From: Halichondria panicea
Taxonomy: Eukaryota; Porifera; Demospongiae; Suberitida; Halichondriidae
Assembly: GCF_963675165.1 (NCBI RefSeq)
Contig: NC_087377.1
Span: forward strand, 13,202,198-13,266,197
Length of the DNA: 64,000 bases
Direction of reading: 5' to 3'
Numbering within the stretch: position 1 is the stretch's first letter; each line of letters opens with the position of its first letter. The translations under genes and the position numbers were made by a program. Shown in pieces: positions 16,142 to 64,000 of the stretch. The notes below the pieces were generated by a model that saw nothing but the letters and a program-made list of their open reading frames with translations, was not told the DNA's origin and did not search any database.

Positions 16142-17746
16142 ATGAAGCTCTTTAAAGTTATCCTGACTTGCTTTCTGGCTGGCTTCAGCACTGGTAAGAA
16201 AAATGTTATTATAGGTTTCCATACATTAACACTTTTCATAAAGCCCAATATTTAGTGAGTGTTGAGAGACCATGTCCAATAGAAACAGTCACTTTTACCT
16301 GCACTGCTGTTGGAGATTCTTTGAGATGGGTACTGTCAGATGTTACTGACATCGATATCCTCTCCACCTTGGATCTCAATGTACCACAAATGCGATCAGG
16401 TTACACTGTGACACTGATTGCAGCCAATGACACCACATTAACATCTACTCTGTCAAGAACAGCAGAGAATGGGATCACTGTGTCCTGTGTGGACCCGCCT
16501 ACAACAACTATAGGATCTTCAATGATCCAATTGGTTGGTGAGTTGCAATAAGTGCCTCGTCCGTTATCTCGCAATAAGTTACATAGATATGCCAGGATCA
16601 CCTTCCACCATAAGACACTCCACTCTGAGCAGCTCAGCCAATAAAGTCAATGTATCTGTACAGTGGGACCCACCTACTGAAACTGGTGGTAGAGATGACC
16701 TCACCTACACAGTGACCGTCTCACCTCCGATCCAGCTCTCTGCTACCATCCTCACATCCACCTCTGTCACTGTGACTGCTCAATACAATGTAGACTCCAC
16801 TGTCAGTGTTGTGGCTACCAACTGTGCTGGGAACAGTACGACTGCTGAGTACAGTTTTAGGATTGGTGAGTTTTGACAGCATCATAATTATTGAGAATCA
16901 ACACACATGCACTCACAGTCATATTTCCAATTCTCTCTCAGGTGGCTGTCCTGTGTTGACAAACCCCACAAATGGAACATTTGGACCAGTTTCCAGCAGA
17001 TTGCCAGGATCTATAGTAACCATCCAGTGTGATGCTGGGTATGTAACGATGGTGACATGTGACGGTACACTATTGTGGAGTCCGAACTCTGAAACTATTC
17101 TGTGTGGTCAACTAACCCAACATATTCCAACAACTTGTGAGTTTAAGAATCTGCTAGTATAATTATGTATACACATGCTTTTTTCACGGAATATGTAACT
17201 AATACGTACAGCTCTTCTAATGCCGAGATGCACAGCACAACTGTACCCACCACAGAACGGTACCATCATCAGTAATCATTCAGTACCAGCTATTCCCGGT
17301 ACACAAGTCACCTTTCAGTGTGATAATGGACTGTTCCCTGAGAGGATAATGACTGCCACCTGTCTGGCTACAGGAGAGTGGGATAAAAACCCGGGAGAGA
17401 TCGTCTGTACAGGCAAGTGTATTCATATTTATACCTGTACTGTAATTATACTTGGAACCACCTATATACAGCTCAATCCCCAACTCTATTCACTGGTGCT
17501 GATATTGGTATTGCTGTTTCCGTTAGCGTGATTGTCACAGCAGCTCTGTTCACGATCATTGGATTCCTCATTGGACTCCTAGTGATGTACCTTCGCTGTC
17601 GTAAGAAGACAGTGTTCTCCCCGGTAGCAGAAGGAAAAACTAACGTAAGACCCACTACACCAGTTGGTCCTGTTTATGAAGAGGTGTCACCCAAAGAGGA
17701 GATTGAACTAAACATTAACCAGGCGTATGGACCAGTAGGACTGTAA
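16142..17746 (+). CDS. Receptor copy 1: signal peptide, Ig-like, FN3, CCP, CCP, TM, YEEV tail
   Basis: Exons 16142-16193, 16256-16537, 16587-16865, 16942-17136, 17212-17412 and 17472-17746; every junction is phase 1 and the frame is open throughout. The signal peptide is MKLFKVILTCFLAGFSTG. The Ig-like exon has the Cys-Trp-Cys layout (FTCTAVGDSLRW ... ITVSCVD). The FN3 exon has VQWDPPTETGG and ends NCAGNSTTAEYSFRIG. Each of the two CCPs has the CCP cysteine/tryptophan signature, although the first lacks some motif spacing (TMVTCDGTLLW). The TM helix is followed by CRKK. The tail has VFSP, VYEEV and AYGPV. Extracellular domains are typical of adhesion or recognition proteins; YEEV resembles a Src-family SH2 site. 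The donor of intron 5 is GC (cag|gcaagt), not GT. Ligand unknown. Confidence 0.85.
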
Positions 17747-18611
17747 AACTTATTTACTCTTTTGGTATCCAGCATCCCACAAGTGAAATCATTACATTAT
17801 CAGGCCTTTCCTTTTTCTTTTTGACCTATAGCTAGACTTTGCGTGCATATAATTATAACCTCTACTTGTTTTGGTTGACTTCAACACTCTATATGCTCAG
17901 TCTGGCGGTGTGCCTGTCAGCTAGCTATGTCTTTAGTTACTATCCGTCCCCAACACCTCTCTCCAAGTCACCATGCAGTCCCTGTGGAGACTATACCTCG
18001 GCAGTCGGCACAGATAACCATCTCCTAGTTACAACACTCTCTAGAGTATGACTATATATCAGAGCTTACAACGGTGTTGGAATGATGAAGCAATTTTGGA
18101 TATGAGTAAGCTAGCCATTAATTGCATGGTCTCCACTAAATATTTTAATGTCAATAATTTATATGCCAAGTATGTGATGGACCCCACCCAAGTTGCTACA
18201 CACACCACTCTTGAGTTGTCTATTTTTACAACATACAGTCGTGCATTGCACTCCTCTTCTTTATAATGCTGTTGTGTGCCTCACACCATCTACTGCCGAT
18301 GTTACCATCTCCATACATTACTCCTGTACGATGCTATATCTACTAATGGATCCAAGGTCACTTTCACTTGCAGTGGAGACATGAATTAAGTAGTAGTAGT
18401 GAGTACTCCCCCCTCTGACCTTATTCACTTTATCTATTGTATAGTGTATAGGTGGCAGGTGCTGCTACTTTTGGACCTATAGCTGGAACTTTTGTTGGCA
18501 GCCTGTTTGTGGTGACACTGATGTCATAGAGTTCATAGTTTTTGCTAGTAGCTATTTATCACACACACAAAAAAGTGAGCGACTGTACAATATAATTGGC
18601 CATGGATAACC

Positions 18612-18656
18612 TAGCCTCGAATCCAGGCCGATTATAATCGGCCTGGTCTCGAGGCT
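18612..18656. mobile_element. 45-bp AGCCTCGA MITE with exact 10-bp target duplication
   Basis: A palindrome AGCCTCGAATCCAGGCCGAT / ATCGGCCTGGTCTCGAGGCT. ATGGATAACC flanks it at 18602-18611 and 18657-18666. This is the cleanest evidence for 10-bp target duplications in the family. Confidence 0.85.
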
Positions 18657-19154
18657 ATGGATAACCGTGAAAATGAAGGTGATTGATTGAGATTGTGTCA
18701 TGACTATCATACCCTAGAGACCAAAACAAACATTGAGTTGCAGTCGAAACTGGCTTTTGAGAATCAAATACATCAGCAGCTATAAATTATACTCGCTTAC
18801 ACTGAAGTGTTTATTTTCTCTTCATAATGGTTATAGGATTGTATTCATCGCTTTCAATTTCTTATGATCACAGCAGCTGGCTAAACAAACACCAACACTC
18901 ATTAAAAGACAAGACAATGATCAAGTGTGTGTTTCCAAGCACATTTCATTTCCAGGCATGCTTCCACTTCCATTAGTGTTCTCCTTGCCACATGCACTCA
19001 ATGTAGCAATTTAGCAACTGTTTCATTAATGATATTTACATGCACTAGCTTCCTACCGCGCTACTAATGCGAACCGGCTGGTATCACGAGACTATATAAG
19101 GCAATAATAAACCCACTGTCCTAATTGGTATGCTAGTCCATTAGCTCATGATTA

Positions 19155-19305
19155 GCTCTATATAATAGTTAGACACTGTTTAGGAAATTTCTACATGATT
19201 TAGAAGCCCAAAGGGCTGGTTGTAGTATCCCAAACGTAGTGAGGGTTCTACTAGCCCTGAGGGTTTCTAAATCATGTGAAACTTTCTAAACAGTGTCTAA
19301 GCATT
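19155..19305. mobile_element. P2 palindromic element
   Basis: 'Agttagacactgtttagga' at the left and 'ctaaacagtgtctaagcatt' at the right, with 'atgatttagaagccc' inverted as 'agggtttctaaatcat'. Non-coding foldback repeat. Confidence 0.65.
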
Positions 19306-20305
19306 ATAGATCATAGCAACCGTAAGTATCTAGCCAATCAGTTTGAATGTTCTTATCTAATCTTTGCTACATGATTTTCTAAGTGAAGTACATGATTTTC
19401 TAAGTAAGTACATGATTTTCTAAATTGGATAGAACACTTCCTTTAGCCAATCAGATTGCAGTATTTATGGCAAACATGATCTAACTGCTGCTAGATTTAC
19501 ACAAGACATCACATTTTGCTTTTGCGCTTTATAAAAAAAATGGTGAACTTCTTGGTGACAAAGGAGAAAGCAATGCTGAGAGACACTGATGTCCATTTTC
19601 TTTTTACACAATTCAATTCTACACAATTCAATTCAGATCAAGTATCTTCTGTTAATAGCATTTATGATTAACTCTCAGACAACGATGGTCACATGACCCC
19701 ACCACATATGACTGTCCCTCAGGTAATGTGCATGTAATATCACTATATCACAACATCACTAGTCCTCCCCTTCCATGATTCCTAAGTATTCAGTAGCCGA
19801 TTAGTAAATGCTCGTGCATGTGCAGCTGATTGATATGGTACTTCCTGCATGGCCTTCCATATATTATAGTGCACTGCTCTCTTCCTCCTGAGCTGTGCAA
19901 TGGTGCTATAGTGGACTATGATAGGTTGAACGAGACAGTGGTGGAGGGAACATTGCTGACTTACCAGTGTGACAATGGACTCTCACTGACTGGACCCAAC
20001 ACCATTACTTGCACTAATGCTGGAGTCTGGAGCACTGAGCCTGAGGCAATCAAGTGTGTACTTAGGATTGAAGGTACAAGGAGTTATTTATTCCATAATG
20101 CATAATTATACTATCTATTTCACAGGTTCTACAGTCGCTATATCCTATCTACTGATGAAGCTATCGCTATAAGTGTTGTCATAACTTTCATTGTTGCTGC
20201 CATTCTTGGATTCCTCACTGGACTCCTAGTGATGCACTTGTGCTCTCGTAAGAAGGCAGTATACTCTCCAGCAACTGAAGGACAAGCTAACGTAGGACTC
20301 AACAA

Positions 20306-21303: not shown

Positions 21304-23885
21304 ATGAAAATACAAGCAGTTATTATCATCATTCAGTTGTTTACTCTTGCTGCAGGTAAGTAAGGTGTTCACTGGAACCTTCACTAGAAATATTTATAGC
21401 CTAAAAGATAGATCAATCATTATTATTTGTTCAGCCACTTTGACATCCACCCCCACTGTGGCCTGTCCTGATGACACTGTTGCCTTCACCTGTACTCTGC
21501 CTGGTACTATGGGTGTAACCATTGGCTGGACAGTAACTCCACCAACAGGACTAAATGTGGCCAGTGCATCTGGAGCAGTTAGTAACAGTTTGGTAATGAA
21601 TATCATTGGCTCTGATGGGTTCCTGTTCCGGGCTGATTACTCTGGATATTCAATGGAGGCATGGTAACATCTACCCTTACCACTCTCACCATGGTGACAG
21701 CGCTGGCTGGAGCTATGGTAGACTGTAGAGTAATAGGAGGAGTAGGGGAAGATCAAATACCCATCAGCGTGGCTGGTGAGTAAATAATCTTGATTAAGGC
21801 CTGTGTTAGTTGTAAAAACGTGTTTCTGGTCAAAAACTTATCAATAGTATGAGGGAGGGAGGTTCTCATTTCCATTATATTCCATTATTGATGATGTCAT
21901 AAAATACAAATTCCTGTTGCTAAAAATCAAATGTTAGAGACTGTGGATGGACACTAGTTATCTTTCAAGGAAGAAGACTTTGCTTTATAGTGTTGCAGAA
22001 CACTGTAAAGTTGATGACGGATACTCATACTAGCTAGCCATGAACTGAGATCCAAAATCAGTAGATTGCTAATTGCTTCCTTTTTGGGTGGAGTTTTTTG
22101 ATGACGTCATTAAATAATGGCTGACATCAGCAATAATGGTCATTTTAAGCGGGCACTAAATGAGTATGCGGGAGGCTGACCAGAAACACATTTGTAACTA
22201 ACACAGGCTGAATACAAAATTGTCAGAACAAAACTAATGCTAACGGGGGGGGGGGGTATTTCTCAAAAACAGATCCATCTTCACTTCTACTGAACCCAAG
22301 TGTGACCTCCACTCAAAGCCAACCCAGTTCTTCTAATATCACTTTGGAGTGGGACTCCCCTTCATCTACTGGTGGTGTGTCTGTCAGCTATGTCGTCACT
22401 ATCTCCCCAATACCTCTCTCCGGGTTACCAGTCACCATGGAAACCACCTCTGCACATATCATTGTCTCCTACAACACTCTCTACAATGTGACAATCAGAG
22501 CTGTCAACTGTGCTGGAATGAGTCAAGAAGCTTCAATTGAGGATCTGAGTAAGCTATTTCGTGGTTGTACATAGAGCACACAGAACTCCTTCTCGCACAG
22601 TGGTGTGTCCCACACCGTCTACTGCTGCTATGGTGACCATCACCAACACACCTCCTGTCACTATTGGTGGATCCATGCTCACCTTCACATGTAGTGGAGA
22701 CAATGAAGTGAGAACCTCAACCTGTGGCAGTAGTGGGTGGTCTCCTGACCCTGAGACCTTTGACTGCAGCAGTCTGATTACAAGTGTGTTAATTGTATTA
22801 TCTATAATATTATTATGGCTGACCTCATTAGATCCCCAAGTCGCTTGTGGTTCTCCTGCCGCACCGTCCAGAGGTAGTGTGGACATCATTAGTGGGACAC
22901 CACCCTTCTCACTGGGTTTACAGGTCATCTATCGCTGTGACGAGGGACTGTTCCCCCCTGATGTGAGGACCAGCACATGCACTGATGTGGAGGGTAGGGG
23001 AGAGTGGGTGAAGAATCCTGGGAGCTTGGTGTGCAGGGAGAGGCCAGGTGAAATGTTAGTTGGGAAAATGTTTAGGCTTCCCAAACCACACTGGTAAGTG
23101 TGATAACAAATAAGCCTCTAGAGTGGGTGGTTGTGGTTTTTTTAGAGTTTCACAAAAGACCCGCTTGCATCCGTGAAGCATGTAATTAAGTTGGCTTGGC
23201 CTTGCAATATTTTCTTTAAAAAGGTCATTCTATAATTTCTGCGATGTACAATATATTGTATTAGCTTAATACGGACACCAGTAGGTTATTGGATGCTCGT
23301 GTTGAGCTGATTGAGATACAAACATGTACTCATAGTCATTTTCTGACCGTCCATATAGTCAACTGCACCGTACCTGCTGAGCCGTGCAATGGTGCTATAG
23401 TGGACTATGAGAGGTTGAATGAGACAGTGTTGGAGGAAACACTGCTGACTTACCAGTGTGACAATGGACTCTCACTGACTGGACCCAACACCATCACTTG
23501 CACTAATACTGGAGTCTGGAGCACTGAGCCAGAGGAAATCAAGTGTGTACTTATGACTGAAGGTGATGAGCTTTGTAATTGTTTGCTATCTATATATATA
23601 CTATCCCATCTCACAGTTTCTACTGCCGCTCCTTTGTTCTCCACTTCTGCAACAGTCGCTATCAGTGTGGTTATCACTTTCATTGTGACTCTAGTCATTG
23701 GATTCCTCACTGGACTCCTAGTGATGCACCTTTGCTCTCGTAAGAAGGCAGTGTACTCCCCATCAGCTGAAGAGCAAGCTAACGTAAGACCCACTGTACC
23801 AGTTGGTCCTGTTTATGAGGAGGTGTCACCCAAAGAGGAGATTGAACTCAACACTAACCAGGCGTATGGACCATTAGGACTGTGA
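21304..23885 (+). CDS. Receptor copy 2 (divergent): signal peptide, Ig-like, FN3, three CCPs, TM, YEEV tail; one apparent frameshift
   Basis: Exons 21304-21355 (MKIQAVIIIIQLFTLAAG), about 21434-21775 (Ig-like), 22273-22548 (FN3), 22601-22783, 22832-23047 and 23359-23562 (three CCPs), and 23617-23885 (TM and tail). All junctions are phase 1. The Ig exon has VACPDDTVAFTCTLPG and a later VDCRVIGG, but the reading frame breaks near 21645, where one missing base would account for the stop after SGYSMEAW. This may be a sequencing error, a null allele or a pseudogene; all six other exons are open. The tail has KKAVYSPSAEEQ, VYEEV and AYGPL, nearly identical to the other copies, while the ectodomain is much more divergent. 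Exon 4 has three candidate AG acceptors within 30 bp; only the last keeps the CCP in frame. Confidence 0.75.
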
Positions 23886-25560: not shown

Positions 25561-25615
25561 GGATGAACAGTAGTAAAATAATTGCTTCTTAAAACACAAT
25601 CATCTATACTATTAA

Positions 25616-26891: not shown

Positions 26892-28502
26892 ATGACAATA
26901 ATAGAAATAATAAAGCTCATTAGAGTTCTCCTGATTTGCTTTCTGGCTCGCTTCAGCACTGGTGAGACTGACAATTCAATTATAGATTTCCTTACATTTA
27001 ACACTGCATGTTTCATAAAGCCCAATATTCAGTGAGTGTGGAGAGACCATGTCCAATGGAAACAGTCACTTTCATCTGCACTGCTCCTGGAGATTCCTTG
27101 AGATGGGTACTATCAGATGCAACTCCCATCACTATCCTCTCTTCTCCCTCTGGTCTCAATGTACCCCATGCTGTGTCAGGTTACACTGTGACACTGATTG
27201 CATTCAATGACACTACTTTAACGTCTACTCTGTCAAGAGCAGCAGATAATGGGATCACTGTGCCCTGTTTAGCTACTGTGCCTACTCTGACCACTCACTA
27301 TAGGATCTTCAATGATTCGACTGGTTAGTGAGTTGCAGTTAGTGTCTCGTCTATTGTGTGTATACACTAGTTACATAGATCTATCAGGACCACCGTCCAC
27401 CATCAGATACTTCATTCTGAGCAATTCAGCCAATGAAGTTAGTGTATCTGTACAGTGGGACTCTCCTACTGAGACTGGTGGTAGAAATGACCTCACCTAC
27501 ACAGTAACCGTCTCACCTCCGGCCCAGCTCTCTGTACTGTCCTCACATCTACCTCTGTTACTGTGACTGCTCAATACTATATGTAGACTATAATGTCAGT
27601 GTTATGGCTACCAACTGTGCTGGGAACAGTACGACTGCTGAGTACAACTTTAGGATCGGTGAGTTTTATTTTTGACACACAGTGTCAACTCCTCCTCAGG
27701 CAACTGTCCTATGTTGACCAACCCCATGAATAGAGCATTTGGACCAACCACCAGCAGTTTGCCAGGATCCACAGTAACCATCCAGTGTGATGCTGGATAT
27801 GTGTCTGCTGTTACAATGGTGACATGTGAGGGTACACTGATGTGGAGTCCAGACCCTGAGGCTATTGAGTGCACATCACTAACTACACCTACTCCTACAA
27901 CTCGTGAGTTAAGCTCTTGCTGTATGCAATATTTATTCTGTGATAACACAGTCCCCCCTCAAATGAGGTGCACAGCTTCACTACCCCCACCACGGAATGG
28001 CACCATCAGTGATCATTCAGTACCAGCTATTCCCGGTACACAAGTGACCTTCCAGTGTGACGATGCACTGCTCCCTGAGGGCATAATGACTGTCACCTGT
28101 CTAGCTACAGGAGAGTGGGACAGGAACACGGGGGAGATTGTCTGCAGAGGCAAGTGTATTCGAATACACTTGTAATCATACTTCTCTCCTGAACCACCTA
28201 CAGCTGTTCTTTGTAATTACGCCAGCCTATCTGATGGGAGTCGATTTGATGCAGCTGTCTCCATCAGCGTGGTTGTCACGGCAGTTGTGTTCACCATCAT
28301 TGGATTATTGATGGGACTCTTGATCATGTATTTGCTCATGCGTAAGAAGGCAGTGTACTCCCCGTCAGCTGAAGGTCAAGCTAATGTAGGACCCACTGTA
28401 CCAGCTGGTCCTGTTTATGAAGAGGTGTTACCCAAAGAGGAGATTGAACTGAACACTAACCAGGCTTATGGACCATTAGCAATTTCATCAACAGTTAATT
28501 AA
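26892..28502 (+). pseudogene. Receptor copy 3: all six exons present, Ig and FN3 frameshifted
   Basis: Exon 1 26892-26961 (MTIIEIIKLIRVLLICFLAR). The Ig exon 27033-27327 is 295 nt, which breaks phase; an extra CACT near 27291 shifts the end. The FN3 exon from about 27381 loses one base where others read CTCTCTGCTACTGTC, giving a stop after LSSHLPLLL. CCP1 27700-27903, CCP2 27952-28149 and TM/tail 28204-28502 remain open. The tail has VYEEV and AYGPL but ends AISSTVN instead of GL. The CCP2 donor is GC. A transcript using only the downstream exons is conceivable; otherwise this is a recent pseudogene. Confidence 0.8.
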
Positions 28503-29788: not shown

Positions 29789-32593
29789 ATGACACTAATA
29801 GAGATAATAAAGCTCATTAGAGTTCTTCTGATTTGCTTTCTGGCTGGCTTCAGCACTGGTAAGACTGACTATTCAATTATAGATTTCCTTACATTGCTGT
29901 ATGTTTTATAAAGCTCAATATTCAGTGAGTGTGGAGAGACCATGTCCAATGGAAACAGTCATTTTCACCTGCACTGCTCCTGGAGATTTCTTGAGATGGG
30001 TACCATCAGATGTTTCTGCTCCAATCACTATCCTCTCTACTGCTGATCTCAATGTACCACAAGAAACGCAGCCAGGTTACACTTTGACACTGATTGCATC
30101 CAGTAGCACTACATTAACATCTACTCTGTCAAGAATAGCAGAGAATGGGATCACAGTGTCCTGTGTGGGGTTTGATCCTACTTTAAATACTATAGGATCT
30201 GCAACAATCCAATTAGTTGGTGAGTTGCAGTTAGTGTCTCGGCCATAATTGTAAATGTTACGTAATTATAGATCCACCAGGACCACCTTCCAGCAAAAGA
30301 CACTCGATTCTGAGGATCTCAGCCAATGCAGTCAGTGTATCTGTACAGTGGAACCCTCCTACTGAGACTGGTGGTAGAGATGACCTCACCTACACAGTGA
30401 CCATCTCACCTCCGGCCCAGCTCTCCGCTATTGTCCTCACATCCACCTCTGTCACTGTGACTGCTCAATACAATGTGGACTACACTGTCAGTGTTGTGGC
30501 TACCAACTGTGCTGGGAACAGTACAGCAGCTGCCTACAATTTTAGAATCGGTTAGTCGAGTCGGATGTATATATAGTCTTTAAACAGCATACTATTAAAA
30601 AACACTGACTCCCTCTTGTGCAGGTGGCTGTCCTGTGTTGAATGGAGCGTTTGGACCAACCACCAGCAGATTGCCAGGATCTACAGTAACCATCCAGTGT
30701 GACGCTGGGTATGTATCTGCTGTTACAATGGTGACATGTGAGGATACACTGATGTGGAGTCCAGACCCCGATATTGAGTGTACATTGCAAACCACACCTT
30801 CTCCTATACCGTGTAAGTTTTGTTTGCATGTACATGTAGATGAAATTTAATTTTTGATCTTCTATAGTCCCTCCGATGAACTGCACAGCTCCACTATCCC
30901 TACCAAGGAATGGCACCATCAGTGATCATTCCATACCAGCTATTCCCGGTACACAAGTGACCTTCCAGTGTGACAATGGACTATTCCCTGAGGCCATAAT
31001 GAATGTCACTTGTCTAGCTACAGGAGAGTGGGACAAGATCCCAGGGGAGATCGTCTGCAGAAATGAGTCTAGTAAGTTTCCTGATTTATGGTTTAGTGTA
31101 CTCAATTTATTGAGCTCAAAGTCGAATTACTAAAAATTCAAATGAGCGTATAAATATTTCATTTTTACATCAATCATATTCCTTGTACTCAGTTTCATGT
31201 GTCCTGCCTGCCCCTCCACTCAATGGAGCTTTACTCAACACCACGTCTCAGAATACTAACCTAATGGAGGGCTCAGTTATTACCTTCCAATGTGATCCTG
31301 GGTTCTCACTGGTGGGTGCAACGACTGCCACTTGTAACAACTCTGGTCTCTGGGATCCTGACCTGGCTCTGTTGGAGTGTTGTACGTACGCATATGAGTA
31401 GTCATAAACTAGCTGGTACAACGATATACCGTAAATGCGCGAAAATTTCAAGGCATGCACTTACAAATATACCAGAAACACTCCCAGGCCAGGCCTTCAA
31501 TCTTTGCACGTTATAGCAAATAAATTAGCAAAAATTAAGCCCCTTGAAATTTGGCACTGTACTGTATAGCTCAAAGTACATTTATATACAGTATAGACTC
31601 TCGCTATTCTGGCTCTCTGAAGTACGGTCACCTCGATATACCGGCCATTTAGTTTGGCACAGATTGCACAAAACTCACCCTGAAACGCGGCCACTCGCTA
31701 TATTCCGTATACTGGCTGCCCCTCACTAGGTTTTAATGTACGTTTATTACGGCCGGATATGATGTTTTGGGTGTGGTTTGGCAGATAAAATTGGATTACA
31801 CTTAAATATAAGAGCAGAATGATTCACTATCTTCATTATCCTCGAGACAGACCCGCAAAATTAGTCATTAGATTCGAGGTAAGGTTGTTTTTAAGCCGCA
31901 GCTATTTTCTGAAATACAGCCACCTCGCTATTCCGGCCAATCTGCACTGTCCCAAGGGTGACCGGATTAACGAGAGTCTACTGCATAGCATTTACGATTT
32001 TTGATATTTACGGCACTTAATATTAAATTGATATGATAGAGAGGTTAATCTTTTGTTCGGAGGTTATATTAGTGAGTAGTAAACTTCAGAGTCGGAAAAA
32101 AAACACTGACTTCTCAGAAAAATTGACGAAAATTAAATTTGACTCTTGAAAATTAACATGTTCATACAAAACTGACATAAATACCTCATACAACACAGTA
32201 CTCTGATTGTGATAATTGCCTATAATTATCAATTAGTGCTCTATTTGTTGTCCTAAGAATTATTGCCAATCCTTCACAGCTCTGACTGCTACCACCCTAT
32301 CAACTGTTGTAACTGTTGCCATCGGTGTTACTACTACTTTCATTGTGTCTACTCTATTTCTCGCTGGACTCCTAGTGATGTACTTGTTTATGCGTAAGAA
32401 GGCAGTGTACTTCACAAGAAAAATAGCATTATCTGTTGTAGAACCCACTAAACCAGTTGGTCCTGTTTATGAGGAGGTGTTACCCAAAAAGGATATTGAA
32501 CTGAACACTAACCAGGCGTATGGACCAGTAGGACCACCCAAAGAGGATATTGAACTACATACTAACCAGGCGTATGGACCATTAGGACTGTGA
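29789..32593 (+). CDS. Receptor copy 4: signal peptide, Ig-like, FN3, three CCPs, TM, tail with duplicated motif
   Basis: Exons 29789-29858, 29926-30219, 30272-30550, 30624-30812, 30868-31071, 31193-31381 and 32280-32593; all lengths keep phase 1 and no internal stop is seen. The third CCP (SCVLPAPPLNGALL ... FQCDPGFSLVGATTATCNNS) is absent from most paralogues but is the type found, decayed, on the minus strand at 5.3 kb. The TM exon differs from the group (TTLSTVVTVAIGVTTTFIVS-like region), and the tail has a tandem copy of the last module, giving VYEEV, AYGPV and AYGPL. The CCP2 donor is a normal GT here. Intron 6 is about 900 bp because of transposon insertion. Confidence 0.8.
31585..31985. 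mobile_element. pogo/Tigger-like nonautonomous element in intron 6
   Basis: The left end is CAGTATAGACTCTCGCTATTC; the right end, inverted, is CAGTAGACTCTCGTTAATCC. Interior phrases 'tattccggcc' and 'cacctcgctattccgg' are typical of pogo-like element termini. A further end fragment is at about 37060-37100. Confidence 0.55.
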
Positions 32594-35352: not shown

Positions 35353-36749
35353 ATGACACTAATAGAGATAATAAAGCTCATTAGAGTTCTTCTGATTTGC
35401 TTTCTGGCTGGCTTCAGCATTGGTAAGACTGACTATTCAATTATTGATTTCCTTACATTGACACTGCATGTTTCATAAAGCCCAATATTCAGTGAGTGTG
35501 GATAGACCATGTCCAATGGAAACAGTCACTTTTACCTGCACTGCTAATGGAGATATCTTGATATGGGACCTGCCTGGAAATCGTATCACTGTCCTCACCA
35601 CCTCTGATCCACTAGTAATGCAGTCAGGCTACACTGTGACACTGATTGCACTTGATAACGATACATTAACTTCTACTCTATCAAGAACAGCAGAGAATGG
35701 GATCACTGTGTCCTGTTTGGAGATTGTGTCTACTCTAACCACTATAGGATCTTCAACAATCCGTTTGGCTGGTGAGGTCTTGTCCATTGTCCATTGTCTG
35801 TATGTGTAAAAAATGTATATATAGATCCACCAGGACCACCTTCCGCTGTAAGACATTTTATTTTGAGCAGCTCAGCCAATGAAGTCAGTGTATCTGTACA
35901 GTGGAACCCTCCTACTGAGACTGGTGGTAGAGATGACCCCACTTACACGGTGACCATCTCACCTCCGGCCCAGCTCTTTGCAACTGTCCTCACATCCACC
36001 TCTGTCACTGTGACTGCTCCATACAATGTGGACTACACTGTCAGTGTTGTGGCTACCAACTGTGCTGGGAACAGTACAACTGCTGACTACAACTTTAGGA
36101 TCGGTGAGTCGACATCGTTAAAACAGCAACTATATATATATACTGACTCCCTCTTGTGCAGGTGGCTGTTCTGCGTTGACCAACCTCACGAATGGAGCAT
36201 TTGGACCAGTCTTCAGCAGATTGCCTGGATCAACAGTAACCATCCAGTGTGATGCTGGGTATGTGCCTACTGTTACAATGGTGACATGTGAGGGTACACT
36301 GATGTGGAGTCCAGACCCTGAGGCTATTGAGTGTACATCACTAACCACACCTACTCTCACAACTCGTGAGTTAAGCTCTTGGCTGTATAGTTATGGATAC
36401 ATGAATTGTATTACACAGCCCCTCCAATAAACCACTATCCCCACCACTTGAACCACCTACAGCTGCTCCTTGTAGTAATTGTGCCAGCCTATCTGATGGG
36501 AGTCGATTTGATGCAGCTGTCTCCATCAGCGTGGTTGTCACAGCAATTCTATTCACGATAATAGGATTATTTGTGGGACTCTTGATAATGTATTTGTTCA
36601 TGCATAAGAAGAATGTGTACTCCCCGTCAGCTAAAGAGCGAGCTAACGTAGGACCCACTGTATCAGCTGGTCCTGTTTATGAGGAGGTGTCACCCAAGGA
36701 GGAGATTGAACTAAATACTAACCAGGCGTATGGACCAGTAGGACTGTGA
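35353..36749 (+). CDS. Receptor copy 5: signal peptide, Ig-like, FN3, single CCP, TM, YEEV tail
   Basis: Exons 35353-35422, 35493-35771, 35825-36103, 36162-36365 and 36463-36749, all phase 1 and open. The Ig exon differs from the others around the centre (LIWDLPGNRITVLTTSD). The second CCP exon is deleted: 36418-36462 is a fusion of the first bases of CCP2 (cctccaataaac) with the end of the following intron, leaving a working acceptor for the TM exon. The product therefore has one CCP. The tail has NVYSPSAKER, VYEEV and AYGPVGL. Confidence 0.8.
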
Positions 36750-40154: not shown

Positions 40155-43100
40155 ATGTTAGAAATATTAAAACTCATTAGAGTTCTTCTAATTTGCTTTC
40201 TGCCTGGCTTCAGCACTGGTAAGACTGACTATTCAATTATAGCTGGATTTGCTTACATTGAACACTGCGTTTTGTAAAGCACAATATTCAGTGAGTGTGG
40301 AGAGACCATGTCCAATGGAAACAGTCACTTTCACTTGCACTGCTGCTGGAGATTCCTTGAGATGGATACCATCAGATACCTCAGCTCCCATCACCGTTCG
40401 CAACACCATTGATCTCAATGTACCGCTAATGCAATCAGGTTACACTGTGAAACTAACTGCATTCAATGACACTAGTTTAACCTCTACTCTATCAAGAACA
40501 GCAGAGAATGGGATCACTGTGTCCTGTGTGGAGTTTGTGCCTGTAAGTACTATAAGGTCTTCAACAGTGCAATTGGTTGGTGAGTTGCAGTGAATTAGTG
40601 TTTCGTCCATAATTGTCAAAATTTAATGGTTACAAAATTATAGAACCACCAGGACCACCTTCCACCATCAGACACTTCACTTCGAGTATCTTAGCCAATG
40701 AAGTCAGTGTGACTATTGGTTGGGACCCTCCTACTGAAACTGGTGGTAGAGATGACCTCACCTACACAGTATCCATCTCACCTCCGGCCCACCTATCTGC
40801 TACTGTCCTCACATCCACCTCTGTCACTGTAACTGCGCAATATAATGTGGACTACACTATCAGTGTTGTGGCTACCAACTGTGCTGGGAACAGTACGACC
40901 GCTGAGTACAGTTTTAGGATTGGTAAGTATATTTTTTTACACAAAGTGTCAAATCCTTCTCAGGCAACTGTCCTGTGTTGACCAACCCCATGAATGGAGC
41001 CTTCGGACCTGTCTCAGGCAGATTGCCAGGATCCACAGCAACCATCCAGTGTGACGCTGGATATGTGTCTGCTGTTACGATGGTGACATGTGAGGGTACA
41101 CTGATGTGGAGTCCAGACCCTGAGGCTATTGAGTGTACATCACTAATTATAACCACACCTACTCCCACAACTCGTGAGTTTAAGCTCTTGGCTATATATT
41201 AGTAAAACCAGTAGGTTTTACATAGGATTGGCAGTGGGTTTGCCTGTGTTTAGCAATATTTCAATTATTTTGACTCATGTTCAAACTGTTCTATCTCTGC
41301 AGGGAAAGGCCACATCAAGAAACTGGCTGAACAGATAGTTTATTTAGCCTTTTCTCTCTTTGTATCTCTCATTTCATAATCCATAAACATTTTAATGAAT
41401 GAATATTTTCATTTTAAAAATTGCACTATTTCGACGTTTCACCGCTCTTTGTCTGACTGACTAAGTAAGTAAGTAAGTAAGTAAGTGAGTAAGTAAGTAA
41501 GTAAGTTTCTTGCCCAGCATTTACTCCAAGTACAGCCATCTCCAGGACATTCTGCACAGGGTTTCCAAACGACTACAACCTGGATTACAAAGCGCTTCTT
41601 CAGATTTGCGATTGCTTCCACAAGGCAGATGACCTCTCAGTCTCTATTTCTCTTACCTAGACAATTCCGCCATCTTTAATGACTCAGCAATTACGTTGTG
41701 GCCAATAATAATAGATAGGCGTGGCTAAAAAACCGTGTGCCTAAAATCAGTGCAGCAGTGCTTTTCCAGAGCCTGAGGTGTTCCTTTTCTTCACACTGTT
41801 CAGCTCTAGCTCCCTTTCTCTGACAGGCATGCTATATGCACTGGCTAGATATCATGCTCTTAAAATGGCTGTCATTTAATACTGATTCGCAAATTCAACA
41901 TAATTATCAAGCAATAAATTATTACTCATTATACTATAATTATTAGTCCAGAGATATTCGAGAAGATATCTGATTAGTCCTGTCTTCTCTTCTTGTACTG
42001 CCTCTTGACGTTCCACTTATGCATGTCATGATACGTAAACTGTACTGAAAAAGAAAGGGAATCCGACTAGAAAAACATTTGCAATGTGAAAAATTGCTAG
42101 GATTGGCCAGGGGAACCACAAAAAAGCGTGGGAACAAGAAATCAGACGAGAGCATAACTCCAATCCGTTACAACGTCATGAACATGTACAATACATAGTA
42201 TATTAAATAATAGACTGTGTTCCAGATCCACCTATCAGCTTCCATCCACCACATCATTCCATGCAGTCACCAGTACGGTCCGTGCATGTTACTACGCATG
42301 GATGGACTGTGTGTACCTGTGCTCAACACTGCATGTATTAGGAACATCAATTCATCACAAATCATCATGATAATGTGCCCCACATTCTTATAATAAATAT
42401 ATATAGGGATTGGTCATCACTCCACCAGTAAAAATTGCGTGGCATATTGGCTGGGAAAACATGGGAAAACTACCAGTATACATGTGATTGACGTTGTAAC
42501 GGATTGGAGTTATGCTCTCGTCTGATTTCTTGTTCCCACGCTTTTTTGTGGTTCCCCTGGCCAATCCTAGCAATTTTTCACATTGCAAATGTTTTTCTAG
42601 TCGGATTTACCTTGTGTGTGCATGCGCAGCAAGCAGCATGCAGGGTAGAGTGATTGGTGTATGTCGGTTTGTGAAAAATAAGCTGTTTGAGCGAACTAGA
42701 CACTTTCATAGACTGCTTTATGCTAATGAGACAGTGGTTGAAAAATAATAGGCTAATTAATTTTAGGCGATCTTCGAAGATGAGAAAAAAACACTGTTTT
42801 CTAATCGATGCTTTATAGATTCACGATCATTCCTGATTCACGATCATTCCCCATAATGTTAAGGTGGTTATGGTAAAAGTTATTGTATCTGTTTTGCTGC
42901 TGTGCGATGAAGCTCATTGCATAGGGTGAATGCTCTACAGAGCATCTTGTTATGGAAATTAATACTTTAACAGTATGTTATTTACACAGCTCCAATGAAC
43001 TGCACGGCTCCACAAGTGTATTCATTATTTGAAGTAATCATGCTTCTATATACACACCTTGAACCACTTATACAGCTGTTCTGCACAATTGCGCCAGCCT

Positions 43101-43359
43101 ATCTGATGGGAGTCGATTTGATGCAGCTGTCTCCATCAGTGTGGTTGTCACGGCAGTTCTATTCACAATTATTGGATTGTTGATGGGACTCTTGATAATG
43201 TATTTGTTCATGCGTAAGAAGAATGTGTACTCCCCGTCAGCTAAAGAGCAAGCTAACGTAGGACCCACTGTACCAGCTGGTCCCGTTTATGAGGAGGTGT
43301 CACCCAAAGAGAAGATTGAACTGAACACTAACCAGGCGTATGGACCAGTAGGACTGTGA
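40155..43359 (+). CDS. Receptor copy 6: signal peptide, Ig-like, FN3, CCP, then TM exon 1.9 kb away; CCP2 lost
   Basis: Exons 40155-40218 (MLEILKLIRVLLICFLPG), 40292-40579, 40644-40922 and 40964-41173 are open and in phase 1. The next usable exon is the TM/tail exon 43076-43359, complete with NVYSPSAKEQ, VYEEV and AYGPVGL. Between them, 41200-42600 is inserted sequence, and 42640-42985 is a second copy of the family's upstream block followed by only the first ~30 bp of a CCP2 exon. So 42640-43359 is probably the end of a separate truncated copy like that at 48.2 kb, fused here by deletion. If the long intron is spliced, a one-CCP receptor results; otherwise both halves are partial. Confidence 0.6.
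41460..41506. repeat. TAAG tetranucleotide tract
   Basis: About ten AAGT units with one interruption. The adjoining 41510-41640 has no recognised identity. Confidence 0.8.
42060..42607. mobile_element. Foldback element with essentially identical 119-bp inverted arms
   Basis: The arm 42060-42178 starts AATCCGACTAGAAAAACATT and is repeated inverted at 42489-42607. I see no mismatch between the arms, so insertion or arm homogenisation is recent. The 310-bp loop has no gene, and no clear target duplication is visible. Confidence 0.85.
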
Positions 43360-45600: not shown

Positions 45601-47193
45601 ATGACACTAATAGAGATAATAAAGCTCATTAGAGTTCTCCTGATTTGCTTTCTGGCTGGCTTCAGCACTGGTAAGACTGACCATTCAATTATAGATTTCC
45701 TTACATTGCTGCATGTTTCGTAAAGCCCAATATTCAGTGAGTGTTGAGAGACCATGTCCAATGGAAACAGTCACTTTCACCTGCACTGCTCCTGGAGATT
45801 CTTTGAGATGGGTACTGTCAGATGTTACTCCCATCGATATCCTCTCCACCTTGGGCCTCAATGTTCCAGTAATGCAATCAGGTTACACCGTGACACTAAT
45901 TGCATTCAACGACACTACATTAACATCTACTCTGTCAAGAACAGCAGAGAATGGGATCACTGTGTCCTGTGTGGACCTGCCTACAACAACTATAGGATCT
46001 TCAATGATCCAATTGGTTGGTGAGTTGCAATAAGTGCCTCGTCCGTTATCTCACAATAAGTTACATATAGATCTACCAGGATCACCTTCCACCATAAAAC
46101 ACTCCACTCAGAGCAGCTCAGCCAATGAATTCAGTGTATCTGTACAGTGGGACCCACCTACTGAGACTGGTGGTAGAGATGACCTCACCTACACAGTGAC
46201 CGTATCACCTCCGGCCCAGCTCTCTGCTACTGTCCTCACATCTACCTCTGTCACCGTGACTGCTCAATACAATGTGAACTACACTGTCGGTGTTGTGGCT
46301 ACCAATTGTGCTGGGAACAGTACGACAGCTGACTACAACTTTAGGATTGGTGAGTATTATTAATTTGACACAAATTGTCAACTCCTTCTCAGGTAACTGT
46401 CCTGTGTTGACCAACCCCATGAATGGAGCCTTCGGACCAGTCTTTAGCAGATTATCAGGATCCACAGTAACCATCCAGTGTGACGCTGGGTATGTATCTG
46501 CTGTTACAATGGTGACATGTGAGAGTACACTGATGTGGAGTCCAGACCCGGAGGCTATTGAGTGTACATTACTAACCACACCTACTCCCACAACTCGTGA
46601 GTTAAGCTTTTGGTTGTAGGAAATTAATACAAAATATCTATGTTAATCATTACACAGCTCCTCCAATAAACTGCACAGCTTCACTACCCTCACCAAGGAA
46701 TGGCATTATCAGTGATCATTCAGTACCAGCTATTCCCGGTACACAAGTTACCCTCCAGTGTGACGATGAACTGTTCCCTGAGGGAATAATGGCTGCTACC
46801 TGTCTAGCTACAGGAAAGTGGGACGAGGAGATCATCTGCAGAGGCAAGTGTATTCATTACAATGAATACACTTGCTTGTAATAATACTTATCTCTTGAAC
46901 AACCTACAGCTGCTCCTTTTAGTTGTGCCAGCCTATCTGATGGGAGTCGATTTGATGCAGCTGTCTCCATCGGCGTTGTTGTCACAGCAGTTGCGTTCAC
47001 AATCATTGGATTGTTGATAGGACTCTTGATTATGTATTTGCTCATGCGTAAGAAGGCAGTGTACTCCCCAGCAGCTAAAGGACAAGCTAATGTAGGACCC
47101 ACTGCATCAGCTGGTCCTGTTTATGAGGAGGTGTCACTCAAAGAAGAGATTGAACTGAATACTAACCAGGCGTATGGACCAGTAGGACAGTGA
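45601..47193 (+). CDS. Receptor copy 7, reference copy: signal peptide, Ig-like, FN3, two CCPs, TM, YEEV tail
   Basis: Exons 45601-45670, 45738-46019, 46071-46349, 46393-46596, 46658-46843 and 46910-47193. All junctions are phase 1 with no stop. The signal peptide is MTLIEIIKLIRVLLICFLAG. The Ig-like exon has FTCTAPGDSLRW and ITVSCVD. FN3 has VQWDPPTETGGRDD and NCAGNSTTADYNFRIG. CCP1 has NCPVLTNPMNGAFG and TIQCDAGYVSAVTMVTC. CCP2 has NCTASLPSPRNG and LQCDDELF. An ectodomain stalk (CASLSDGSRFDAAVS) precedes the TM helix and MRKK. The tail has VYSPAAKGQ, VYEEV and AYGPVGQ. Intron 5 has a GC donor (agag|gcaagt); reading through it stops after GKCIHYNEYTCL. Symmetric phase-1 exons would allow domain skipping without frame loss. 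Confidence 0.88.
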
Positions 47194-48234: not shown

Positions 48235-49072
48235 ACAAAATGAGCTGTTTGAACGAACTAGACACTTTCATAGGCTGCTTTAACTGCTGTACTTGAAACT
48301 TTTAGGCGATCTTCGAAGGCGACAAACCAATTGATTTAATCGTTGCTTTATAAATTCACGATCATAATTATATTCCCCATAATGATAAACTCGTTACGGT
48401 AAAAAGTTATTGTATCCGTTTTGCTGCTGTGCGATGAAGCTCAACGCACAGTGTGAATGCTCTACTGAGCATTGTTATGAAAATTAATACTTCCCAACAG
48501 TATGTTATTTACACAGCTCCTCCAATGAACTGCACGGCTCCACTATCCTCACCACAGAGTGGCACCATCAGTGATCATTCAGTACCTGCTCTTTCCGGTA
48601 AACATGCAAGTGACATTCCAGTGTGATGATGGACTCTTCCCTGAGGCTGAGGGCATAATGACTGCCACCTGTCCAGCTACAGGAGAGTGGGACCAAAACC
48701 CAGTAGAGATCCTCTGCAGTGGCAAGTGTAGTCATTACTTAAAGTAATTATGCTTCTATATACCTTGAACCACTTATACAGCTGTTTCTTACAATTGCGC
48801 CAGCCTATCTGATGGGAGTCGATTTGATGGAGCTGTCTCCATCAGCGTGGTTGTCATGGCATTCTATTCACCGTCATTGAATTGTTGATGGGACTCTTGA
48901 TAATGTATTTGTTCATGCATAAGAAGAATGTGTACTCCCCGTCAGCTAAAGAGCAAGATAATGTATAGGACCCACTGCACCAACTGGTCCTGTTTATGAG
49001 GAGGTGTCACCCATGCAGAGAGGAGATTGAACTGAATACCATAACCAGGCGTATGGACCTGTAGGACTGTGA
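48235..49072 (+). pseudogene. Receptor copy 8: upstream block joined directly to CCP2 and TM, frameshifted
   Basis: The upstream block (48235-48500) runs straight into a CCP2 exon (about 48516-48720), so signal peptide, Ig, FN3 and CCP1 are absent. CCP2 shows small indels (ccggtaaacatgcaagtg). The TM exon from 48782 has a deletion at 'gtcatggcattctatt', a stop at 'aatgtatagg' and an insertion 'catgcagag' before the KEE-equivalent. The YEEV and YGPV coding triplets are still visible. The GC donor is retained. Dead copy. Confidence 0.8.
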
Positions 49073-54976: not shown

Positions 54977-54978
<2 letters not shown>

Positions 54979-55337: not shown

Positions 55338-58300
55338 TTACTGCAATAGGTACAAGGGAACAGAACAATACACAGCATCGTGGTCACTGTAGTAAACATC
55401 ACGTACATGCATGAAAACATCTGTACATTGTCTATTTAAGTACACATGATCAATTAAAGTTCCGTTATCTGTGGTGGCACTTTGGACGAGCTGATTGTAG
55501 CCTTGTGACAACATAAAATATTCTACTTGAGACCCAGTAGGACACAATATATTATCATTAAAATCACCTAGCACCAGAGTTGTAGTATCTGCTGCACTAA
55601 TATGATTAAATAGATCAGTCATAAAGTGAAGAAATAGTCTAATTGGTACAGTTGGGGACCTGTAAACTACTGCTACTTGTAATTTGTAATGATCATAAAG
55701 CAAAGTTGTTACTACACATTCAATACCATTGGACGTAAATGTGGACGTACTGCTTGCTTGCCACCTATCATTAAAACTAATCAAGGTTCCTCCCTTGTGG
55801 TCATTTGCGGGTCTATCACATCTTACTACTGTATGGTTACTGTGTATTGTGGGAGAAGACTGACTTCTTGACAACCAAGTTTCACAAAAACACAAAGCAC
55901 ATGCTTTCATGAGGTCAGAGTCTTCTTGTATGTCTGCTAGCTTAGCAACAAGTGACCTAACATTAAGCAGTGCTATTGTAATGTGGCTCGACCAGGGAAG
56001 CAATTGCAAGGGTGGTGTGCTATCCAATAGTTGTGCCCTTAATCTATCCATTTCTGCATCTACATGTGGGCTCTTGGTAATAGCTTTGGGATTGTAATTT
56101 ACAATGTGTAGGCCAGTCAACGATTTCACTCTACTTAAAGCAACATACATTTGGCCAGGATTAAATCGAGTGCCTTTCATATCCACAACAATAGCATCTA
56201 ATGTCAACCCCTGTACTTTGTGAATGGTAGTAGCCCATGCTAGCGTTAGTGGAAACTGTAAGCGTGTAATTTCAGCACCACGTTTGCCTTTAGCAAGAAA
56301 CACAACTTCAAGTTTGCTTAGTGGTACAGCATTAGGGTGGGTTACTCGATATTGACTAGACTGAGAGGCCCCTAAACCTACTTGTTCATTGTCAAACTTT
56401 ACCAGGACTGTACTCACTTCACCACTACTGTCGGTTACAATGTGCACAATTTGACCCCTGGCACCATTTACCAAGCCGTCTGACACGTCCACATTAGTGG
56501 TGAGCATAACTCTAGAACCAACAACAATCTCAAGTGCACTATGGAGACCGCCTGTATCTGTTCTCTTGCTAGACAAACTTCCTAAATCAATGTGCTTTGT
56601 TTGACCAGTTGCAGCATCTGTAGCTTTAATTTTATACCTTGGATCGCTAGCGGGTAAACAACTCAACATGTACTTGTTGCGAATGTCTACGTCTTCATTC
56701 AATCTGTACACATGTAAGGCCTGAGTAGGATAATCTACGGAATTTGAGTGTACTATCCGGGACTTTAGTACGCTAATGTCGACTGCAGTGCAACTAGCCG
56801 TTCTAGCTCTGCACAACAGTTTGGCAAAAGCGCTGTCGCCCTGCTGACGCATTATCTCATCGAGCTCGACCAATTTGAATTGATCTTGCCACACTGAACC
56901 AGATCCGTACAATTGTGCATAACAGTCTCTAACTCTACTAAACAGTGTGGGTTGACCTACAGGTGGCAATTGGTACAAGTCGCCAACAGCCAGTACACTT
57001 ACTCCACCAAACATTAAATCTGGGGCTACAGCTTTAATTTGTTGCAACCTTTTGTGTATCTCAAGCAACATATTTGCACCAACCATGCTCACTTCATCAA
57101 TGATTAGCAAAACTAGCTTAGAGAGTTTAGAACGCAGTGTATTCACTCTTTCATTACTGAGTGGCTGAAACCCACTGGATCTACTTCTGCCTAACAAAAA
57201 TGCTGAGTGTAGTGTCATGCCATGTATATTGAACGCTGCTACACCCGTAGGGGCTGTTAAAAGTACCAACACATCATCTGGTTCAGTTGTTCCTGAGAGT
57301 CTGATCAATTTCAAAGTGTCTGACTGAATTAACTTAATGACATGTGATTTACCGACACCGCCAGGACCGCTCAAGAAAATATAGTACGGTTCAATGCGCT
57401 TACCATCCTTTAAGTCTATCACCGCACGTTTACACCAATTACGATGGTACACAACAATTTGTTTTTGCTTAGTATTAAGGCTTCTCATCAACGTTCGATA
57501 CTCCGTTGGTGGAATAACCTTGTGATTAGCTGCACTTTCAAACCTAGCACTTAACGTAGGTGCGCTCCCACTAGTGGGATTGGATTGCAACAGCCTATCA
57601 TTGTCTACTAGATCGTCTGGTGAAATGTCTGTGATTGTTTCACTACCTTGCTGGGCTGCATTAGTGTTGCTATGCTCGGTTGATGGGGCTATCTGACACC
57701 ACGCATGCTCTGGTCTACTATTTTCATCAACATCAATATTGTCTATATTTTCAATTGTATACTTAGACTCATTTGAAGCAACAAATGTTCGGACAGCGTT
57801 GTAATGCTCAGCATAGGTGGAGTGTCCAGCAAGCAAGTCAACTTCTTCGTTGTACCACGGATAATACAACATGAGCTTTGCCCTATACCAATTGCTAGGA
57901 TCGGAATGTATGTTATACCGTCTGAATCTTATGGTAGCTGGTCTCCTCCGCTCACGCATGAACCCAAAACCACCCGTAAGACGTATTTTGTTGGTGTTTG
58001 TCTCACTTTCTACATCTAATGCATCATTGTTAACATCGTCAGCCTGAGGCCTATAGTCGGTAGAGTAGGTAGCAGCAAACTCAGCTAAACACATGTCACT
58101 CAACTGGGCAGGTCTATGCTCATATCTGTCAATCAGGCTCTTCTGAAACACATTAGTATCTTCTCCATGCAACTTACTAAGATCATCAGGGCCCTTAAGC
58201 ACAGCTATTCTGTCTTTTTTGATATTCGTGTCAACAAATATAACGGCCCTACTTAGCTGCTTCAATGGTATGGACAACAACCTGTACACTGTTTCCTGTG

Positions 58301-63052: not shown

Positions 63053-63474
63053 GTAAAGACTGCTATATGATATTTGTTGTAAGTTAGTTGTAAGTTAGTA
63101 AAGTTTTGCATGTAAAGACTGTTATATGATATTTGTAAGTTAGTGCTTACCAGGATTTGAGAAATGAGAGTTGAGAAATGAGAGTTGAGGAAATCAGTAT
63201 TCTGCTGTCAGTGAAATAATCTAAATGTGGGAGAAACTTGATGCTGCTGTCAGAAGTGAACTTGGATCAGACAGTGAACTTGAATCAAGATTTAGAAATC
63301 AATATTCTGTTGTCAGGATCAGGATCTAGGAGTGAACTTGAGTCAGAAGTGACAATAATCCATGTGGAGTTTAGTACGCATGCGCAAATACAATGGCTGC
63401 AAATAAAACATAGAAGTGTTTTTGAGGGCGTGGCCAGATTACGAAGCAGTGCAGTGTAGCTAGATCTAGCTACC
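63053..63474. other. 5' flank of the Helitron ORFs
   Basis: A ~45-bp duplication 'catgtaaagactg(c/t)tatatgat' is at 63050-63140. At 63150-63200 'gagaaatgagagttgag' is repeated, and 63240-63350 has repeated 'gtgaacttg(g/a)atca' words. It probably includes the promoter and 5' end of the element; no gene seen. Confidence 0.4.
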
Positions 63475-63862
63475 GTAGCTAGCTAGCGTTGCAGCTCTTT
63501 TCTGACTTTTGTAGCTAACAAAAACCTAGCGCTTTAGTGCAAGGCTAACTTATAAGTTGCATAGAAACTTTGTGCGGACAGGTGATGCTACGAAAGATTC
63601 TGAAGAGACAGCAACAGCCTTCAATGTGAGTCAAACTAGCCATAACTAGAGAAAGAAGCTTTAGTTTGCTAATCTACGAATCAAAATCCAAGAGAAGGTG
63701 GCTAGAAGCCTATAGAAGCTGCTAGTTTTCGTCTTATTGCAACCGTTGAGCATTTACAGCTGGAACAGACACACAGACACACAGACACACAGACACACAC
63801 ACACACACACACACACACAGTCAGCTTTACCGTATCCCTCGTGCGGCTACGCCTCGAGGCAT
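63475..63862 (+). repeat. Dispersed repeat R with (AC)n and terminal GCCTCGAGGC
   Basis: The inverse of 14763-15105, ending 'tacgcctcgaggcataatta'. It directly abuts the remaining upstream block of the last receptor copy. Confidence 0.7.
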
Positions 63863-63928
63863 AATTATCATAAAGGAAGTAAACAAGGAGGTTGTGTAAA
63901 TATTCTCACTGTCAAGAAATAATTAGAG

Positions 63929-64000
63929 ATGACACTAATAGAGATAATAAAGCTCATTAGAGTTCTTCTGATTTGCTTTCTGGCTGGCTTCAGCACTGGT
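63929..64000 (+). CDS. Receptor copy 9, first exon only (cut by window end)
   Basis: Exon 1 63929-63998 encodes MTLIEIIKLIRVLLICFLAG, identical in protein to copies 4 and 7, and the next two bases are the gt of the donor. 63863-63925 upstream ('ataaaggaagtaaacaagga', 'tgtcaagaaataattagag') is the end of the conserved upstream block. The array therefore continues beyond the Helitron. Confidence 0.8.
   Translation, partial: MTLIEIIKLIRVLLICFLAGFSTG

Follow-up and report, generated by a model that had tools for sequence, protein, structure and literature searches.

The described systems closest in layout to the one reported here are allorecognition receptors of other animals. Self/non-self discrimination occurs in sponges, although the receptors involved have not been established (PMC12065747), and sponge allografts show a repeatable specificity for which a polymorphic system is thought to be responsible (PMC5450542). 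According to a 2025 review, the proteins proposed for allorecognition in sponges, cnidarians and ascidians are not conserved, and the mechanisms are unknown (PMC12065747). The FcoR proteins of Botryllus combine a V-type Ig domain, a sushi domain, two C2 Ig domains and a transmembrane (TM) segment, are encoded at 53 loci, and have tails with immunoreceptor tyrosine-based inhibitory motifs (ITIMs), hemi-immunoreceptor tyrosine-based activation motifs (hemITAMs) or YxxI/L/V core motifs (PMC12065747). In Hydractinia, the allorecognition complex contains at least 41 Alr loci (PMC11067881). Here, we describe an array of predicted Ig-FN3-CCP receptor genes with a common tyrosine-bearing tail in a 64,000-nucleotide stretch of sponge DNA (hereafter the window; C1:13202198-13266197 in an assembly of 131.5 Mb and 39 contigs). 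The window is part of a multi-megabase cluster of some hundreds of receptor gene copies. Our preferred reading, which we regard as reasonably probable, is that this tandem array in a silicatein-bearing sponge encodes germline recognition receptors that evolve by birth and death and feed a single phosphotyrosine output.

Compared by layout alone, FcoR appears to be the nearest described family and Alr the next. The predicted sponge receptors and FcoR would share a type I TM topology, a variable-type Ig domain (putative in the sponge), sushi domains, cytoplasmic YxxI/L/V motifs and organization as a clustered multigene family, and the Y-x-x-I/L/V core motif as defined for FcoR (PMC12065747) was found at both sites in 48 of 60 TM/tail matches. 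FcoR additionally has two C2 Ig domains and a longer tail, which carries an ITIM or hemITAM in some members, and its genes are paired with fester genes (PMC12065747); the sponge array has FN3 in place of C2 Ig, one short common tail, and hundreds of copies. The Alr proteins are likewise clustered, single-pass membrane proteins of the immunoglobulin superfamily whose domains required structure prediction for recognition and whose loci include pseudogenes, but they number at least 41 loci, have a known allorecognition role, and are described without CCPs in the source cited (PMC11067881). Botryllus fester also has extracellular Ig and sushi domains, but differs in its three TM domains and in a short tail described as lacking a known signalling motif (PMC12065747). 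The lineage-specific SRCR expansions of sponges, in which Ig and FN3 combinations occur, resemble the array as large, sponge-specific expansions of surface receptors, but that family is defined by the SRCR domain (PMC4772301), and none was seen in the array exons identified. We found no published description of the present receptor family by title or abstract, in a search that mostly did not reach subscription papers and preprints, where one may be in print.

The extent of the array was established by searches across the assembly, in which all copy counts are lower bounds. The best 150 of 293 candidates for the TM/tail exon all lay on C1, at 11.249-14.928 Mb, an interval of ~3.7 Mb on an 18.1-Mb contig, and 148 of these 150 exons contained no internal stop. 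Exact DNA matches to the tail motif PVYEEV numbered 266 genome-wide (175 + 91; reversed-pattern control, 1 + 1). The first 100 listed all fell within C1 11.27-12.38 Mb, with a median spacing of 5,880 bases, 91 on the plus strand and 89 of 99 neighbouring pairs on the same strand. The clustering of Ig/FN3/CCP receptors with tyrosine tails proposed in a first-pass annotation of the window was borne out and found to be larger. A query with the Ig exon gave 120 matches (150 scored of 186 candidates), 118 of them within C1 11.25-14.93 Mb; the other two were at C1 10.42 Mb (42% identity) and on a 5-kb contig. A lone copy with the family tail was found on C7. Beyond this genome, a tail-exon search of a genome contig collection gave 186 pattern matches and a search of viral contigs with the Ig profile gave 51, none of which was confirmed.

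Within the window, exon-by-exon tblastn searches and inspection of splice sites resolved nine same-strand receptor copies or remnants (A-I) at 16142-49072 on the plus strand, in agreement with the count of the first-pass annotation, together with a signal-peptide exon belonging to a tenth. The common architecture which that annotation had proposed for all copies held for six (A, D, E, F, G and H), in which the exons run in the order signal peptide (cleavable in appearance), Ig-like, FN3, one to three CCP, TM and tail; copy C belongs to a divergent class, and B and I are remnants. The reported variation in CCP number and intactness stood: among the main-class copies there are one (F and G), two (A, D and H) or three (E) CCP exons, and D, C and I are broken in the FN3 exon, in a frameshifted Ig exon and in a frameshifted tail, respectively. 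Six-frame translation gave eight VYEEV plus AYGPV/L tails on the plus strand and none on the minus, seven of them in frame and one frameshifted; VYEEV followed by YG within 8-20 residues occurred seven times in the window and not once in 100 dinucleotide shuffles. The cluster had been assigned the span 16142-64000. This was amended: the stretch from 49.1 to 63.9 kb contains no receptor copy, and copies continue far beyond the window.

Forty loci were sampled, L001-L020 hand-picked (not random) from the Ig matches and L021-L040 chosen so as to be roughly spread over the tail matches. They occur on both strands and show either the main (A-type) architecture or that of copy C (B-type), which consists of a second Ig type (Ig2), a second FN3 type (FN3b), three other CCPs and the common tail. 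The same tail is also carried by a third class, with 24 matches at ≥70% identity at C1 11.39-11.40 and 12.85-12.99 Mb. In the single copy read of this class (L022), no CCP exon was found with the A- and B-type references, and its Ig and FN3 domains were assigned by eye, Pfam returning nothing for the Ig and 0.12 for one FN3. In the 31 A-type genes that had all three of the Ig, FN3 and TM exons, the CCP make-up was CCP1 in 11, CCP1+2 in 12, CCP1+2+3 in six and CCP2+3 in two. When phase-1 splice sites at each exon and a stop codon at the tail were required by script, 28 of the 32 genes sampled could be read from end to end, copy D among them only with its broken FN3 exon omitted. These gene models are predictions from splice-site reading and are unproved. 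The models that read through end at the short tail, and a receptor tyrosine kinase was rejected on this reading; no PF07714 match lay inside C1 11.25-14.93 Mb among those listed (129 of 1749 candidates scored).

The tail was the most uniform part of the family. In a census of 60 TM/tail exon matches from the window and loci L001-L042, Y-[E/K]-E-V was present in 51, of which 48 also had the second site, AYxx[VLI]. The gap between the two sites is 13 residues in 45 of the 48, corresponding to a tyrosine-to-tyrosine distance of 17. The near-invariant tail originally noted, VYEEV followed by AYGPV/L about 17 residues on, was thereby recovered in loci outside the window as well. Position -2 was proline at the first tyrosine in all 51 cases and Q, E or H at the second in all 48. 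The ITIM consensus is [S/I/V/L/T]xYxx[I/V/L], which the usual tail does not fit; two of the 60 matches had an ITIM-like pattern in the tail. The immunoreceptor tyrosine-based activation motif (ITAM) has the consensus Yxx[L/I] x6-12 Yxx[L/I] and was likewise rejected, given the gap of 13 and a first site ending in V, with one of 60 matches fitting the pattern. Src-family SH2 domains bind pYEEI, which PVYEEV resembles. SH2 exons were found elsewhere in the genome (71 matches, none inside the cluster), and C2 contains three open frames with SH2 plus kinase.

These features suggest a mechanism in which the Ig head would bind diverse ligands, whether cell-surface molecules of conspecifics or microbial surfaces, and in which FN3 and the CCPs would act as a spacer of variable length. 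We infer that contact between ligand and head could lead to phosphorylation of the tail tyrosines by a Src-type kinase and thereby to docking of SH2 proteins, such that many inputs might converge on one output.

The distribution of constraint along the gene was estimated from the pooled ratio of non-synonymous to synonymous differences (pN/pS), calculated from 25 rows for the TM exon and 24 for the Ig exon. Loci L021-L040 were excluded because the PVYEEV motif or similarity in the tail had guided their selection. Before all selection analyses we dropped exons with internal stops, Ig, FN3 and CCP rows with <93% reference coverage, Ig rows with <50% identity, and TM rows that did not reach residue 85 of 87 or started after residue 18. 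The tail was the most constrained part, with a pN/pS of 0.18 (bootstrap 0.10-0.27) that may be lowered by these filters, which favour intact tails. The TM part gave 0.56 and the juxtamembrane part 1.19 (0.97-1.51). In the Ig exon, pN/pS was 0.28 in the N-terminal part as far as the first Cys, 0.86 (0.77-0.94) in the loop region from there to GYTV, 0.43 from GYTV to the second Cys (the E-F strands), 0.87 (0.77-1.06) in the loop region after the second Cys and 0.37 in the last strand. Variation and length change are concentrated downstream of the first Cys, in the segment W29-G53, and downstream of the second Cys, positions that would, by inference, correspond to CDR1-3 (complementarity-determining regions) of antibodies. 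The tail ratio of 0.18, against ~0.86-0.87 in the loops, points to a tail held by selection beside loops that are free or mildly diversified.

Profile searches supported the domain assignments unevenly. The CCPs reached 39.3, 27.1 and 32.3 bits against a Pfam Sushi cut-off of 20.7. For FN3, with a cut-off of 25, copy C reached 25.7 bits (E 1.3e-5). These assignments of the first-pass annotation were upheld. The copy A FN3 fell below the cut-off (14.9 bits, E 0.031) and its A-type Ig was unmatched. Also below the FN3 cut-off, at 22.7 bits, was L018, a divergent gene with Ig and FN3 that lies away from the cluster at C1 10.42 Mb; the FN3 exons of copy C, copy A and L018 are related by 33-41% identity. 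On the strand opposite to L018 there is a tail-like open reading frame (ORF) with NEAYNVV and DYEQVD. The A-type head has invariant C20 and C82, a nearly invariant W29, and the run TAENGITVSC, a pattern that fits an Ig domain. The A- and B-type profiles matched each other (97.1%, E 4.8e-11). Against Pfam, the B-type head matched Ig_2 in one of eight members (E 0.14), Invasin_D3 in four of eight (0.013) and Big_1 in one of eight (0.3). At an E limit of 10, the B-type profile had 154 matches in the PDB, of which the best 60 (E 0.0078-0.31) were all antibody chains, in short stretches, the best of them in a shifted register, and in a database in which antibodies are over-represented. On this indirect evidence, an Ig-like fold of the head is likely.

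Comparison of the copies with one another indicated how the array may have grown. The sampled copies mostly differ by 10-20%, and matches between the window and the loci range from 75% to nearly 100%. Identical twins were found for several of the tail exons and Ig exons, and over 5 kb locus L027 matches window copies D-E at 97.9%. A chimeric structure is seen in L009, which has a 5' part 93.9% identical to copy D (1,188 columns) and a 3' tail region 99.8% identical to copy G (920 bases). Distances between exons of the same genes are weakly concordant (rho 0.25 for Ig versus TM), and the Ig and TM exons had a common nearest neighbour in 5 of 29 genes. The simplest account is tandem and block duplication with exchange of exons. 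For a 2.8-kb intergenic stretch, all 106 matches were on C1 (40 of 2135 candidates scored), one of them reported at 100% identity 1.43 Mb away.

Several results weigh against the preferred reading of the array as a set of recognition receptors, and they concern both selection and the head domain. Pairwise NG86 comparison gave an overall dN/dS of ~0.5 in every exon type (medians 0.45-0.54 in the larger exon sets), and in codon counts on trees a single Ig codon of 101 showed excess replacement at p<0.05 (codon 22, p 0.006; uncorrected). Codons 20, 49 and 60 of the TM exon also reached p<0.05 without correction; the trees themselves are doubtful because of recombination between copies. Positive selection was therefore unsupported overall by either method, and relaxed constraint accounts for the loops equally well as diversifying selection. 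The description of the family as fast-evolving was thus retained in part, for Ig loops and a juxtamembrane region near neutrality beside a constrained tail, and not as a claim of positive selection. For the head, no Pfam Ig family matched in 33 A-type members, so that the label 'Ig' stands on weaker profile evidence; a search of the PDB with the A-type profile gave nothing convincing (best CbpA, 0.021; NCAM2, 0.36), and AlphaFold on the Ig exons of six window copies was uninformative (pLDDT 42.9, pTM 0.35). In addition, the near-identical blocks 1.43 Mb apart (at C1 11.80 and 13.23 Mb) could in part be assembly duplication.

If copy number were inflated by unresolved assembly haplotypes, blocks and exon twins of this kind would be expected, and both the intergenic copy at 100% identity and the identical tail and Ig exons fit. 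Duplicates cannot explain most copies, however, because of the divergence between copies set out above, and we consider such inflation distinctly improbable as an account of the array. It is also improbable, if a little less so, that the locus is simply prone to duplication and carries a largely neutral birth-and-death array whose copies have little individual function. Such an array would account for a dN/dS of ~0.5, for the remnants B and I and the broken copies D and C, and for the block duplications, but it sits poorly with the tail pN/pS, with the 148 of 150 open tail exons, and with the 28 of 32 genes that read through.

A recognition function, with a ligand that is either self/allogeneic or microbial, seems most likely for the array. 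A diversified repertoire for bacterial surfaces, used by a filter feeder in innate immunity or symbiont recognition, is a serious possibility that nevertheless falls short of an even chance. The large size and rate of duplication of the array suit such a role, as do the lineage-specific expansions of SRCR (PMC4772301) and NLR (PMC12909245) genes in sponges, but known pattern-recognition domains were absent from the parts scanned. That the cluster decides graft fusion or rejection, and would be the functional counterpart of the Hydractinia allorecognition complex or Botryllus fuhc, is only marginally less probable than this. A single linked cluster with Ig-type heads, CCPs and YxxV/L sites in the tail is what such a complex might look like, and both the V-type Ig, sushi, TM and Y-x-x-I/L/V layout of FcoR and the specificity of sponge allografts are in line with it. 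However, the hundreds of copies exceed the 41 or more Alr and 53 FcoR loci in the sources cited, and the main text of an Amphimedon graft paper does not mention immunoglobulin, sushi or fibronectin.

Should the reading as germline recognition receptors prove correct, it would add a further, apparently convergent case in which YxxV/L tails are combined with Ig and CCP heads, this time from the opposite end of the animal tree. An array of this type could serve an antibody-less animal to tell self, strangers or microbes apart. With hundreds of receptor genes, variable in the head and constrained in a common tail, mapped to one interval, the question of sponge recognition becomes directly testable. 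We speculate, more tentatively, that the array may be a sponge recognition complex with a germline-encoded repertoire renewed combinatorially, in which the Ig loops vary, the dual-tyrosine tail, neither ITIM nor ITAM, is fixed, and exon exchange reshuffles heads, stalks and tails. If true, the recognition complex long sought in sponges would have been located, and the design seen in Alr and FcoR would have arisen independently a third time.

The assignment of the host to the sponges, also proposed at first pass, held. Silicatein is a sponge enzyme, cathepsin-L-like with a Cys-to-Ser change in the active site. With a silicatein fragment as query, six of nine short pieces examined contained silicatein-type exons with the Ser active site (CGASYAF or CGSSYAF); the remaining pieces, and L049-L051, keep Cys. 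Bcl-2 family matches pointed to an animal but did not discriminate between phyla. The host was therefore taken to be a sponge because such Cys-to-Ser exons are present.

The receptor copies of the window, all on the plus strand, have the following coordinates. Copy A (16142..17746) is open throughout with all introns in phase 1, and comprises exons for the signal peptide (16142-16195), Ig-like domain (16243-16539), FN3 (16586-16867), CCP1 (16944-17135), CCP2 (17211-17414) and TM+tail (17471-17746). Its tail, with VYEEV, 13 residues and AYGPV at 17672..17743, exemplifies the constrained motif, which recurs at 23811, 28413, 32465, 36675, 43285 and 47119 and, frameshifted, at 48992. Copy B (19869..20297) is a remnant without the tail motif, with a CCP of the b3 type (19869-20057) and a TM exon (20160-20297). 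The divergent copy C (21443..23885) has Ig2 at 21443-21664, after which the frame shifts, FN3b at 22275-22565, CCPs at 22600-22770, 22840-23040 and 23358-23546, and TM+tail at 23628-23885. Copy D (26892..28502) consists of a signal peptide, Ig (27020-27328), an FN3 broken by a frame change and a stop (27378-27660), CCP1 (27702-27902), CCP2 (27966-28151) and TM+tail (28224-28502).

Copy E (29789..32593) follows with a signal peptide, Ig (29913-30221), FN3 (30271-30552), CCP1 (30626-30800), CCP2 (30876-31061), CCP3 (31192-31380) and TM+tail (32267-32593), the last with a third tyrosine motif arising from a 54-bp tandem duplication (32482-32588). Copy F (35353..36749) has a signal peptide, Ig (35480-35773), FN3 (35824-36105), CCP1 (36164-36364) and TM+tail (36486-36749), and the same order is found in copy G (40155..43359), with Ig at 40279-40581, FN3 at 40640-40924, CCP1 at 40966-41163 and TM+tail at 43096-43359, its last intron containing an inverted-repeat element (42060-42607). 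Copy H (45601..47193) contains a signal peptide, Ig (45725-46021), FN3 (46070-46351), CCP1 (46395-46595), CCP2 (46666-46845) and TM+tail (46930-47193), and the remnant copy I (48531..49072) retains CCP2 (48531-48723) and a frameshifted TM+tail (48802-49072). The signal-peptide exon of the tenth copy occupies 63947..64000, and its Ig exon starts ~50 bases past the window (C1:13266250).

The copy-free stretch contains simple repeats, an F-box-like ORF (0.072, below the cut-off) and a Helitron on the minus strand (55338-63094) with OTU, PIF1 helicase, endonuclease and DUF6570 ORFs, the coding part of which carries a 69-bp tandem repeat (61975-62780). Copy A and the tenth copy are each preceded at a short distance by a repeat element (14810-15133 and 63476-63799, respectively), inverted and 90% identical, and a related stretch occurs in L034 (92%). 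Two plus-strand ORFs at 6388-7741, one weakly Ig-like to the family and the other FN3-like in appearance, possibly represent another receptor, although Pfam gave neither an Ig nor an FN3 match for them. A minus-strand ORF at 9308-9802 is a dispersed repeat, with a further occurrence at 95.9% in C32 (L042), a contig of 5 kb.

Elsewhere in the assembly, the only COX1 match was a nuclear fragment at C1:5280527 with two internal TGA codons. Eleven of 17 Bcl-2 family matches clustered at C3 0.86-1.62 Mb, a tandem Bcl-2-like expansion, and 26 PF07714 kinase matches among those listed lay at C1 15.5-17.4 Mb, a large tandem expansion that this chromosome carries in addition to the receptor array.

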